Of a stretch of 38,141 nucleotides of DNA, positions 18,729 through 21,556 are shown piece after piece. Below the pieces are notes generated by a model that did not search any database, had not been told where the DNA came from, and worked only from the letters and a program-made list of their open reading frames with translations. The stretch's first letter is position 1. Every line of letters begins with the position of its first letter. Origin of the DNA: Chryseobacterium gleum (GTDB lineage Bacteria > Bacteroidota > Bacteroidia > Flavobacteriales_D > Crocinitomicaceae); contig CAMAPI010000013.1 of the NCBI GenBank assembly GCA_945860065.1, positions 1 to 38,141 of the forward strand, given 5' to 3'. The position numbers and the translations under genes are program-made.

Positions 18729-20324
18729 ATGAAGAATCAAGAAGCCATTGAAAAAAGAAGAACCTTTGGGATTATTTCACATCCCGATGCAGGTAAAACG
18801 ACGCTAACGGAAAAGTTGTTGCTTTTTGGTGGTGCCATTCAATCAGCTGGCGCCGTTAAAAACAATAAAATCAAAAAAAGCGCTACTTCGGATTTCATGG
18901 AAATTGAAAAGCAACGTGGAATTTCCGTTGCGACTTCCGTGATGGCATTTGAATACAATGGAAAACAAATCAATATCCTCGATACACCTGGACACAAGGA
19001 TTTCGCTGAGGACACGTTTAGAACCTTAACGGCTGTCGATAGTGTCATTCTCGTAATCGACTGTGCGAATGGAGTAGAGGAACAAACGCGTAAGTTGATG
19101 GAGGTTTGTCGCATGCGTAAAACGCCGGTGATTATCTTTATCAATAAAATGGACCGCGATGGAAAGGATTCGTTTGAATTGTTAGATGAATTGGAACAAA
19201 GCCTGGATATTAAAGTTCGTCCACTTACTTGGCCAATTGGAATGGGAGACCGTTTTCAAGGCGTTTACAACATCTACCAAAAAGGATTGAACCTTTTCTC
19301 TGCAAACAAAACAAAAATCTCGGACGATGTCGTATCAATAACGGATATTCACGATGCAGCATTGGATGAAATCATCGGTGAAAAGCCTGCAGAAGAATTG
19401 CGCGAAGAATTGGAAACGATTGAAGGAGTTTACGATGCATTTAATCGCGACGCCTATCTTGCAGGTGATATTGCACCGGTTTTCTTTGGTTCAGCCGTGA
19501 ATAATTTCGGTATCAAGGAATTATTAGATACCTTCTGCGAAGTTTCACCATCCCCACGTGGACGTGAGACTGACAAGCGAATGGTGGAGCCGGGAGACGA
19601 TCAATTCTCTGGGTTTGTCTTTAAGATTCATGCGAACCTTGATCCAAAACACCGAGATCGCATCGCATTCTTGCGTGTCGTTTCCGGCAAGTTCGAGCGC
19701 AATACTTTTTATCAGCATGTGCGTTTAAACAAAAAACTAAAATTCCCGAATCCAACTTCCTTTATGGCACAAGATAAAAGTGTCATCGATGAAGCCTATC
19801 CAGGTGATGTAGTTGGATTATACGATACCGGTAACTTTAAAATTGGGGATACCCTGACAGGTGGCGAGATGATGATGTATAAAGGAATCCCGAGTTTCTC
19901 TCCAGAGATTTTCCAAGAATTAGAGAATTTGGATCCATTAAAATCAAAGCAATTGGAGAAAGGAATCCGTCAGTTAATTGATGAAGGTGTCGCGCAGTTA
20001 TTTGTGCAACAACCTGGAAACCGTAAAATCGTTGGAACGGTTGGACAACTTCAGTTTGAGGTCATCAGTTACCGTTTGATTCACGAATATGGTGCGAATT
20101 GTCGCTTCGTTCCGAGAAATTACTTTAAAGCGTGTTGGATCACTTCCGACAATGAAGAACAGATGCAAAGTTTCATGCGGGCAAAATCGAACTACTTGGC
20201 TAGAGATAAAGATGACAACATCGTTTTCTTAGCTGAAACAACGTTCTTGTTGCAGATGGCGGAACAAGACTATCCAGATTTGGTTTTTCACAAAACGTCT
20301 GAATTCAAGTTGGAGCTTTCTTAG
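18729..20324 (+). CDS. prfC: Peptide chain release factor 3
   Basis: [67 protein letters not shown]...[22 protein letters not shown]...[11 protein letters not shown]. Confidence 0.96.
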
Positions 20325-20338
20325 TACTGGAGGAAAGT

Positions 20339-20374
20339 CTCGTTTTTTAGCAAATCTTAAAACGAGGGATTTGC
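20339..20374. repeat. Interleaved inverted repeats downstream of prfC
   Basis: CTCGTTTT (20339-20346) / AAAACGAG (20359-20366) interleaved with GCAAATC (20350-20356) / GATTTGC (20368-20374). Confidence 0.6.
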
Positions 20375-20410
20375 AATCTATCGAAATCATTCATTAAAAA
20401 TAGTAAGCAC

Positions 20411-20496
20411 TGGGATTACGAGCAAGCTCGTTTTCTATTTGGGGCTCATTTCAAACAAAGGTTCACTTTGCTTCGCAAAGCTCGGACTTTTTTTTC
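20411..20496 (+). repeat. Intergenic repeat copy 1 (tRNA-Lys-proximal terminator-like repeat family)
   Basis: TGGGATTACGAGCAAGCTCGTTTTCTATTTGGGGCTCATTTCAAACAAAGGTTCACTTTGCTTCGCAAAGCTCGGACTTTTTTTTCT; near-identical to copies 2 and 3. Confidence 0.92.
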
Positions 20497-20501
20497 TACT
20501 C

Positions 20502-20529
20502 ACTGCATTGCAGGATTTGTAACCTGTGG
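20502..20529. repeat. Degenerate copy of the GCAGGATTTGTAATCCTGC palindromic repeat
   Basis: ACTGCATTGCAGGATTTGTAACCTGTGG versus ACTGCATCGCAGGATTTGTAATCCTGCG at 30417-30444. Confidence 0.7.
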
Positions 20530-20553
20530 ATCGATAACAAACAAACTTAATCG

Positions 20554-20659
20554 TGGTCCTCTGGGATTACGAGCAAGCTCGTTTTCTATTTGGGGCTCTC
20601 ATTCCAAACAAAGGTCCACTTTGCTTCGCAAAGCTCGGACTTTTTTTGTTTTCTCCGCT
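20554..20659 (+). repeat. Intergenic repeat copy 2
   Basis: TGGTCCTCTGGGATTACGAGCAAGCTCGTTTTCTATTTGGGGCTCTCATTCCAAACAAAGGTCCACTTTGCTTCGCAAAGCTCGGACTTTTTTTGTTTTCTCCGCT. Confidence 0.93.
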
Positions 20660-20691
20660 GATGAGATGGATTTTAAACGCGAGAACGATCT

Positions 20692-20795
20692 TGGTCCTCT
20701 GGGATTACGAGCAAGCTCGTTTTCTATTTGGGGCTCATTCCAAACAAAGGTCCACTTTGCTTCGCAAAGCTCGGACTTTTTTTGTTTTCTCCGCT
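20692..20795 (+). repeat. Intergenic repeat copy 3
   Basis: TGGTCCTCTGGGATTACGAGCAAGCTCGTTTTCTATTTGGGGCTCATTCCAAACAAAGGTCCACTTTGCTTCGCAAAGCTCGGACTTTTTTTGTTTTCTCCGCT; 138 bp from copy 2. Confidence 0.93.
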
Positions 20796-20821
20796 TATTG
20801 AAATAAATTTCAAACGCGTTT

Positions 20822-20864
20822 AAAACAAAAAAAGCCCGCTTCTTTCGAAGTGGACTTTTGTTTG
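20822..20864 (-). terminator. Intrinsic terminator of tRNA-Lys (minus strand)
   Basis: Minus strand CAAACAAAAGTCCACTTC-GAAA-GAAGCGGGCTTTTTTTGTTTT: ~11-12 bp stem with T run, directly abutting the tRNA 3' end. Confidence 0.88.
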
Positions 20865-20937
20865 TGATCCCTCTGGGATTCGAACCCAGGGCCCATACAT
20901 TAAAAGTGTATTGCTCTACCAGCTGAGCTAAGGAATC
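20865..20937 (-). tRNA. tRNA-Lys (anticodon TTT)
   Basis: Minus strand GATTCCTTAGCTCAGCTGGTAGAGCAATACACTTTTAATGTATGGGCCCTGGGTTCGAATCCCAGAGGGATCA: acceptor GATTCCT/AGGGATC, D stem GCTC/GAGC, anticodon arm ATACA-CTTTTAA-TGTAT, T arm CTGGG-TTCGAAT-CCCAG. Confidence 0.97.
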
Positions 20938-20951
20938 ATTAAATTCGCGTG

Positions 20952-20982
20952 CAAAGATATGATTATTCTTTTGTTATCCCAA
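20952..20982 (-). promoter_or_regulatory. Bacteroidetes-type promoter for tRNA-Lys
   Basis: Minus strand TTG-N20-TATCTTTG ending 14 nt before the mature tRNA 5' end. Confidence 0.75.
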
Positions 20983-21055
20983 CATTATTTGGGTAATTTT
21001 GAATTTAACTATTGAAATAAAAGCAATGGGCTGATTTTCAAGTGAGAATAAGATA

Positions 21056-21556
21056 ATGAAAGGACCAATTTTATTAGTAGGCATGATGGGCGCAGGGAAA
21101 ACGAGTCTCGGAAAGTCCTTAGCAAAGCAAACCGGACTTCCGTTTTTCGATACGGATGCTTACATTAAGGTTCAGGCAGGACAATCAATTCCCGAAATTT
21201 TCAGCACCAAGGGTGAAGCCGCTTTTCGTAAAATGGAAGAGGAGTGCTTTTACACATTAACATCGAAAGCTCAATGGATCGCAACGGGTGGAGGATTTCC
21301 TTGTTTTAATGACTTAATGGTGAAAATGAAACAACTTGGTACAGTGGTTTATTTGAAATTGACACCTGAAGAATTACATGCTCGAATTCAAAGTGTTGCG
21401 AATCGACCCTTGTTGCAAACGAGTCATCCTTTAAATGAGTTATCTCGACTACTGAACGAACGATCGGAAATCTATGAAATGGCAGATTTTGTCATTAAGG
21501 GAAACCAATCAACCGATAACTTGGTGAAAGAATTTCAGCAACTTGGCTTAATATAA
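21056..21556 (+). CDS. aroK: Shikimate kinase
   Basis: ILLVGMMGAGKTSLGKSLAKQTGLPFFDTDAYIKVQAGQSIPEIFSTKGEAAFRKMEEE...WIATGGGFPCF...NRPLLQ...RSEIYEMADFVIKG. Confidence 0.93.
   Translation: MKGPILLVGMMGAGKTSLGKSLAKQTGLPFFDTDAYIKVQAGQSIPEIFSTKGEAAFRKMEEECFYTLTSKAQWIATGGGFPCFNDLMVKMKQLGTVVYLKLTPEELHARIQSVANRPLLQTSHPLNELSRLLNERSEIYEMADFVIKGNQSTDNLVKEFQQLGLI

Follow-up and report, generated by a model that had tools for sequence, protein, structure and literature searches.

A tandem repeat array between prfC and tRNA-Lys belongs to a dispersed family of small non-coding elements at tRNA 3' ends

Introduction

The 3' ends of tRNA genes are the best-known landing sites of prophages and genomic islands, which carry integrases. 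The window analysed in this study, a stretch of 38,141 nucleotides, lies on contig 13 of a 2.15-Mb draft genome (G000), whose closest named relatives, by prfC identity, are Crocinitomicaceae/Fluviicola MAGs. Between prfC and a tRNA-Lys gene it holds a row of three near-identical, terminator-like repeats. An initial annotation suggested that the terminator of tRNA-Lys is a fourth, inverted member of the set, and that the array is a dispersed element, a tandem duplication at a tRNA locus, or a series of short terminated transcripts. Here we ask what the repeats are, and how they came to lie beside a tRNA gene.

Results

The repeat array and its neighbours

The array consists of three direct copies on the + strand (20410-20494, 20563-20652 and 20699-20788), with units of about 85-110 bp, spacings of 153 and 136 nt and a homology boundary of unit 1 at 20410. 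It is bounded by the following genes:

18729..20324, + strand: prfC (peptide chain release factor 3), convergent neighbour; an ORF with homologs in 592 loci
20864..20937, - strand: tRNA-Lys(TTT), host gene of the array (ARAGORN; Rfam RF00005, 71.8 bits)
21056..21556, + strand: conserved neighbour 5' of tRNA-Lys in the locus comparison, which we take from sequence recognition to be an aroK-like shikimate kinase

The near-identity of the three units is real (97-98% mutual identity by BLAST, E 5e-36 to 7e-53), and the initial description also holds for the palindrome ACGAG-CAAG-CTCGT, for the spacer and for the hairpin of the terminator, with minor base corrections: copy 1 carries AAAGGTTCAC and TTTTTTTTCTA in place of AAAGGTCCAC and TTTTTTTGTTTT, and copy 2 has 2 additional bases (GGGGCTCTCATTCC). 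A 112-aa mechanical ORF spans the array (20468-20806); it is made up of the repeat and is therefore no evidence for a gene.

The flanks said to be common to the units and the minus-strand tRNA-Lys terminator were recovered by BLAST within the genome itself (75% over 48 nt, E=0.017), and the inverted arms at 20760-20788 and 20822-20850 gave an arm score of 38, the cross-locus median being 17. A unit is one half of something larger: the tRNA-Lys terminator, a centre hairpin and the first inverted unit together form an element of about 139 bp. The inverted kinship claimed for the tRNA terminator stands, but the terminator is the left half of element 1 and not a fourth copy. The units correspond to the right halves of their elements; in copies 2 and 3 the left half is lost or reduced. 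The parts are as follows:

20734..20872, - strand: element 1 entire, including the final 9 nt of the tRNA (covariance model R1, 139.2 bits, with the window in the training set)
20822..20863, - strand: left arm and hairpin 1, which are the tRNA-Lys trailer and terminator and form the left half of element 1 (fold z -4.8)
20789..20821, no strand: hairpin at the centre of element 1, with its convergent terminators on either side (helix 4 of alignment A1, compensatory changes in 4/5 pairs)
20741..20788, + strand: right arm and hairpin 2 of element 1, which are the unit 3 terminator, aimed at the tRNA (inverted arms, folds)
20692..20720, - strand: tail of element 1, palindrome ACGAGCAAGCTCGT at 20707-20720 and then, in tRNA sense, a decayed tRNA-Lys 3' fragment TAATCCCAGAGGACCA at 20692-20707 (sequence)
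20598..20732, - strand: element 2 (unit 2, left half reduced; R1 33.0 bits, E=2e-6)
20554..20582, - strand: tail of element 2, palindrome at 20569-20582 and tRNA-Lys 3' relic at 20554-20569 (sequence)
20445..20594, - strand: element 3 (unit 1, the most diverged, with the relic cut down to CTGGGATTA; R1 30.6 bits, E=9.5e-6)

A direct-repeat scan at the tail of element 1 returned AATCCCAGAGG.

A common plan at other tRNA genes

When the 3' flanks of the 29 tRNA genes found in G000 were tabulated, a common plan was seen at eight of them: Val-TAC, Lys-TTT, Arg-TCT, one Met-CAT, Ser-TGA, Arg-TCG, Ser-GGA and Leu-GAG. From the tRNA 3' end it runs through the trailer, a terminator hairpin with a T-run, the centre hairpin, an A-run and another hairpin to the trailer sequence again, now inverted. 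A full element closes with a tail, in which a short palindrome at the T-loop position precedes the displaced 3' end of the tRNA gene (T-stem 3' strand and acceptor). Elements of the family measure about 140-200 bp and are non-coding; the window array holds only mechanical ORFs. The inverted trailer fits the trailer of its own tRNA best (scores and cross medians are 49 and 16 for Ser-GGA, 49 and 17 for Arg-TCG, 39 and 16 for Leu-GAG), while inner hairpins 1 and 2 are unlike each other in every one of the eight elements. The tail palindrome varies by element type (ACGAGC..GCTCGT, GGGATCTTTAATCCC, or ATTCAGAC..GTCTGAAT).

Sequence homology joins elements at different tRNA loci within one genome, as for Val and Leu-gag (85% over 66 nt, E=6e-15), Lys and Arg-tcg (E=4e-10), and Arg-tct and Ser-tga (E=1e-10). 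The type B tail ATCCACTGCACGTC is exact at Val and Leu-gag, has one variant at Arg-tct and also occurs at the tRNA-Lys of other species. A type B pattern with fixed spacing recovered tRNA-Arg cases only, because the spacing varies.

Distribution and association with tRNA 3' ends

A BLAST search of the own genome with the unit returned the three window copies only, which alone would have suggested a local oddity and spoke against the dispersed family of the initial annotation; the family survives through relatives, the other tRNA loci of G000 and the covariance model. In 60 relatives the same query found copies in several congeneric genomes, all but one (at a contig start with no tRNA) convergent beside tRNA-Lys or tRNA-Arg.

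R1, a covariance model built on the element as a whole, had matches in 72 of 86 congeneric genomes, with 1-17 per genome (12 in G000), and in 100 of 245 genomes of the order, representing 25 of 60 genera and at least 7 families. Strong matches started exactly at an intact tRNA 3' end on the same strand in 101 of the 129 cases inspected (67/86 within the genus and 34/43 outside), a proportion to be read with the fact that the first 9 positions of R1 are tRNA sequence and favour tRNA-adjacent matches; the unit-only BLAST, with a query lacking tRNA sequence, and the type B tail pattern are free of this bias. The host tRNAs were mainly Arg-ACG, Arg-TCG, Arg-TCT, Leu-GAG, Ser-GGA, Lys and Ser-TGA, with single cases of Pro, Phe and Cys. 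Most of the remaining matches were second tandem units, were cut by contig ends inside the tRNA, or lay behind a tRNA 3' fragment without its tRNA. Arrays reach 5 or more tandem units. A pattern for the centre hairpin had no match beyond the window, and a search of Rfam at a permissive E-value gave chance matches only.

Some copies stand without an intact tRNA. Contig 71 of G000 (positions 1-144, locus L298) opens within a tRNA-Lys-like 3' end, behind which comes an element nearer to that of genomes G062 and G082; it may be foreign sequence in the MAG (2.97% contamination) or a displaced copy. At loci L308, L311, L320, L323, L332, L335 and L356, and at L398 and L421 outside the genus, a tRNA-Arg-like 3' fragment with an element has a conserved module on its left, CCCTCCAAATCCTTATAAAAGTTAGATTTTTCGACC (antisense peptide resembling VEKSNFYKDLEGV); this module is possibly the end of a tRNA-Arg-targeting island.

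Signs of insertion and turnover

Several elements are followed by a direct repeat of 15-19 nt of the tRNA 3' end, starting in the T-loop. These repeats comprise 17 nt at tRNA-Val of G000 (AATCCCTCAACTCCCAC), at tRNA-Met of G015 (AGTCCGGTCCCCGCTAC, with a second terminator behind it) and at tRNA-Lys of G020 (AATCCCAGCGGGATCAC), and 19 nt (AATCCGCTATTCTCCACCA, then a second copy of the terminator) at tRNA-Ala of G038, a single-contig genome from another family. At these four loci a regenerated tRNA and an exact displaced 3' fragment at the far end are found together; at the tRNA-Lys of the window the fragment has decayed (TAATCCCAGAGGACCA against GAATCCCAGAGGGATCA), and at Ser and Arg-tcg decay has gone too far for a visible repeat.

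The tRNA-Lys locus is orthologous among congeneric genomes, with an aroK homolog on the 5' side in 24 of 29 loci, and its 3' side carries a type A, B or C element or a plain terminator depending on the species. In G013 and G024 tRNA-Lys has a plain terminator, the locus being empty, though prfC adjoins as in the window. At least six state changes are required at this locus on a 20-genome tree, several nodes of which have weak support. Between tRNA-Lys and a type B remnant, G011 and G022 have a type C element. At tRNA-Lys, type A looks for the most part inherited within one clade, suggesting that movement may be rare.

The tRNA-Arg(TCT) relic in G015 and G089 (loci L156 and L245) reads CCTGAGCGGATCAC, the allele of G000, and their own tRNA-Arg ends in CCTTTCGGGATCAC, showing that the relic is not a recent copy of the present tRNA; tRNA allele recombination would also account for the mismatch.

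Tandem duplication at a tRNA locus, one of the origins initially considered, does occur. Two other arrangements were seen in addition: a segment of terminator plus tRNA-Asn 3' end stands in tandem, with no inverted arms, at tRNA-Asn of G015 (L157) and G038 (L185), and a long terminator-like segment (AAAGCAGAGYGAGAAAGAGAG..) stands in tandem behind tRNA-Leu(CAA) of G015 (L179).

Folding and covariation

The window units and the tRNA-Lys terminator fold better than shuffled sequences (z -2.3 to -4.8). G+C-bearing hairpins with a T-run lie on both strands, so that the features of a predicted pair of intrinsic (rho-independent) terminators are present; a simple terminator pattern scan missed interrupted stems with T7 tails. 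As single-stranded DNA, five regions at different tRNAs folded into an identical four-way junction, in which 20822..20863 of element 1 pairs with 20741-20788.

Given alignment A1 (12 elements, taken at tRNA-Lys and tRNA-Arg loci), RNAalifold arrived at the four-way junction unprompted, and 14 of 34 pairs were kept with both sides changed, which are the compensatory stem changes that the initial annotation had asked about. For the junction, 94.8% of the cells were paired and 38 showed a double change, where shuffled alignments gave 12.6, and slid versions dropped to 43-58% paired cells; the junction was derived from the A1 sequences themselves, and control (b) therefore leans its way. A fold with two separate terminators is also well paired (91.7%, with 15 double changes where 5.0 come from shuffling). 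In terms of sequence, both folds are probably real, with local terminators forming in RNA and the cross being possible in DNA. No Rfam family other than tRNA scored above its curated cut-off.

GIY-YIG genes and a possible island at the same site

Short GIY-YIG ORFs (Pfam PF01541, E=3e-18 and 1e-11) were found directly behind tRNAs: in three tandem copies, the last one truncated, behind tRNA-Phe in G015 (L250, contig 13), in two copies behind tRNA-Asn in G000 (L256, contig 70), and behind tRNA-Arg and tRNA-Met in G004 (L260/L115, contig 38; L255, contig 25). They end in a palindrome (TCCCGCACGTGCGGGA, TCCGCCGCGGCGGA or GAATGCTGAC..GTCAGCATTC) within a residual tRNA fragment, located in its T-loop or anticodon arm, after which come tRNA 3' sequence and a terminator. 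The GIY-YIG genes and the non-coding elements share the same site and have a right junction of the same kind.

A further GIY-YIG ORF, in contig 65 of G004 (L249), has no tRNA and lies between repeated GGCCCTTCGACAGGCTCAGGGACCGG palindromes. In G015, 45 kb separate tRNA-Ser(TGA) from a tRNA-Ser 3' fragment that bears an element (contig 2, positions 183543 and 228456; L174 and L357), a spacing that fits a larger island inserted at the same place and displacing the element.

Discussion

With somewhat more speaking for it than against, we read the repeats as tandem copies of a miniature element, non-coding and directed at tRNA genes, which inserts at the T-loop and gives the tRNA a new 3' end together with twin convergent terminators. 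The element would insert at or near the T-loop, its own copy would rebuild the tRNA 3' end and a new terminator would be brought along; with the 3' end rebuilt and a terminator supplied, insertion would be harmless. Arrays would arise by repeated insertion, or by unequal crossing over between repeats. Since the element encodes nothing, it would be moved in trans. In the cell, the twin terminators would stop transcription from both sides, and a host role as a double terminator in addition to mobility is possible. GIY-YIG nucleases are candidate mobilisers because they share the same site, and a tyrosine integrase acting in trans on the T-loop may be a candidate on an equal footing, given that phage Ms6 uses a site of this kind (PMC1762012) and that tRNA islands likewise leave a regenerated target and a displaced fragment (PMC4383910). 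No mobilising gene was identified inside the elements or linked to them, matches in phage records were confined to the tRNA part of the query, and a search of viral contigs with one exact pattern found nothing. A bolder version of the same reading, in which a new class of miniature mobile element homes into tRNA T-loops across Flavobacteriales, is moved in trans by the GIY-YIG nucleases at the same sites, and is tolerated since the tRNA 3' end is rebuilt by every copy and a twin terminator with a four-way junction comes with it, seems to us unlikely.

The strongest alternative, though we hold it to be less likely, is a host feature under selection, in which twin convergent terminators or a cruciform end transcription both ways and bar antisense RNA from tRNA genes, and are inherited with the tRNA without being mobile. 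Terminator-like hairpins with T-runs on both strands of every element, compensatory change that keeps the stems, G-U pairs in helix 1 of the local-terminator model that suit RNA in the tRNA sense, and the apparently mostly vertical descent of type A at tRNA-Lys in one clade all agree with such a feature. However, it does not predict direct repeats of tRNA ends, arrays of 5 or more units or empty orthologous loci, and a convergent downstream gene, against which insulation would be directed, was found at 5 of 14 tRNAs with an element and 12 of 31 without (Fisher p=1.0, with small numbers and a longest-ORF heuristic), an absence of association that lends simple insulation no support.

Local tandem duplication with template switching, in which replication errors copy hairpin-prone terminators directly or inverted and quasi-palindrome correction keeps the arms matched, appears improbable to us. 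The arms match each tRNA's own trailer and terminator, as such errors would also bring about, and the simple tandem copies of tRNA 3' end and terminator without inverted arms at tRNA-Asn (G038 and G015) also speak for it. Yet switching would copy the inner hairpins too, and hairpins 1 and 2 differ despite the same arms; moreover, unrelated tRNA loci share tails and centre parts, as exemplified by the type B tail.

Least of all do we expect the array to consist of small-RNA genes, each unit specifying an RNA of about 95 nt that has a hairpin at its 5' end, closes with a terminator and is transcribed in the direction of the tRNA: the units fold well on the + strand and P1 of some units has G-U pairs in the + sense only, but a sigma-70 scan found no promoter-like site in 20200-21100 (Bacteroidota promoters differ), leaving the short terminated transcripts of the initial annotation unsupported, no Rfam family scored above cut-off, and the 5' hairpin is explained by the T-loop palindrome and the tRNA relic. 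Integron attC arrays were rejected as no integrase or gene cassettes were seen, and CRISPR-like repeats as the units are terminators with no cas context. An assembly artefact was likewise rejected, the same architecture being present in a one-contig genome and prfC being followed by two units in a near-identical genome (L026).

Under the preferred reading, an element of about 140 bp that carries no gene, stands at as many as several tRNA genes of a genome and occurs in 25 of 60 genera sampled from one order would be a minimal form of tRNA-directed mobility. The tRNA-targeting element gives a testable model of how tRNA genes gain and exchange 3' ends and terminators, and accounts for the repeated occurrence, in these genomes, of tRNA fragments and contig breaks next to tRNA genes. 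R1 and A1 provide a structural model that can be used for annotation.

Searches of open-licence papers for repeats next to tRNA genes, for tRNA-linked GIY-YIG genes and for integration sites in tRNAs turned up no account of these elements, and the family is apparently undescribed and widespread in flavobacteria. Its closest parallels lie in several known systems. Genomic islands that target a tRNA gene regenerate it and leave a displaced tRNA fragment at the far end (PMC4383910), and so does the element; unlike the islands it measures only about 140-200 bp, has no gene or integrase, brings a terminator pair and forms tandem arrays, and because the defining integrase is absent we have not filed it as an island. 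Mycobacteriophage Ms6 integrates in a tRNA T-loop (PMC1762012), and a junction at the T-loop and a duplicated tRNA 3' end are common to both, whereas the residual T-loop of the element holds an inserted palindrome and neither phage nor integrase is present.

Small palindromic units of alternating orientation, non-coding and dispersed, are shared with REP/BIME sequences (PMC2817692); REPs usually exceed 100 copies per genome at many intergenic sites; the element has at most 17 R1 matches, at tRNA ends. With MITE-like small mobile sequences (PMC2229807) it has in common that it is non-autonomous, folded and about 100-200 bp long. It seems to differ from MITEs in having no conserved terminal inverted repeats and no known transposase, its inverted arms differing between loci and no autonomous partner being identified, and in targeting tRNA 3' ends with an end repeat that is tRNA sequence. 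Finally, GIY-YIG homing endonuclease genes (PMC1564403) are coding, unlike the window elements, and the likeness is one of position and junction: in relatives, short GIY-YIG ORFs sit at this very place behind tRNA-Phe, tRNA-Asn, tRNA-Arg and tRNA-Met and finish in a palindrome and tRNA 3' relic of the same kind.
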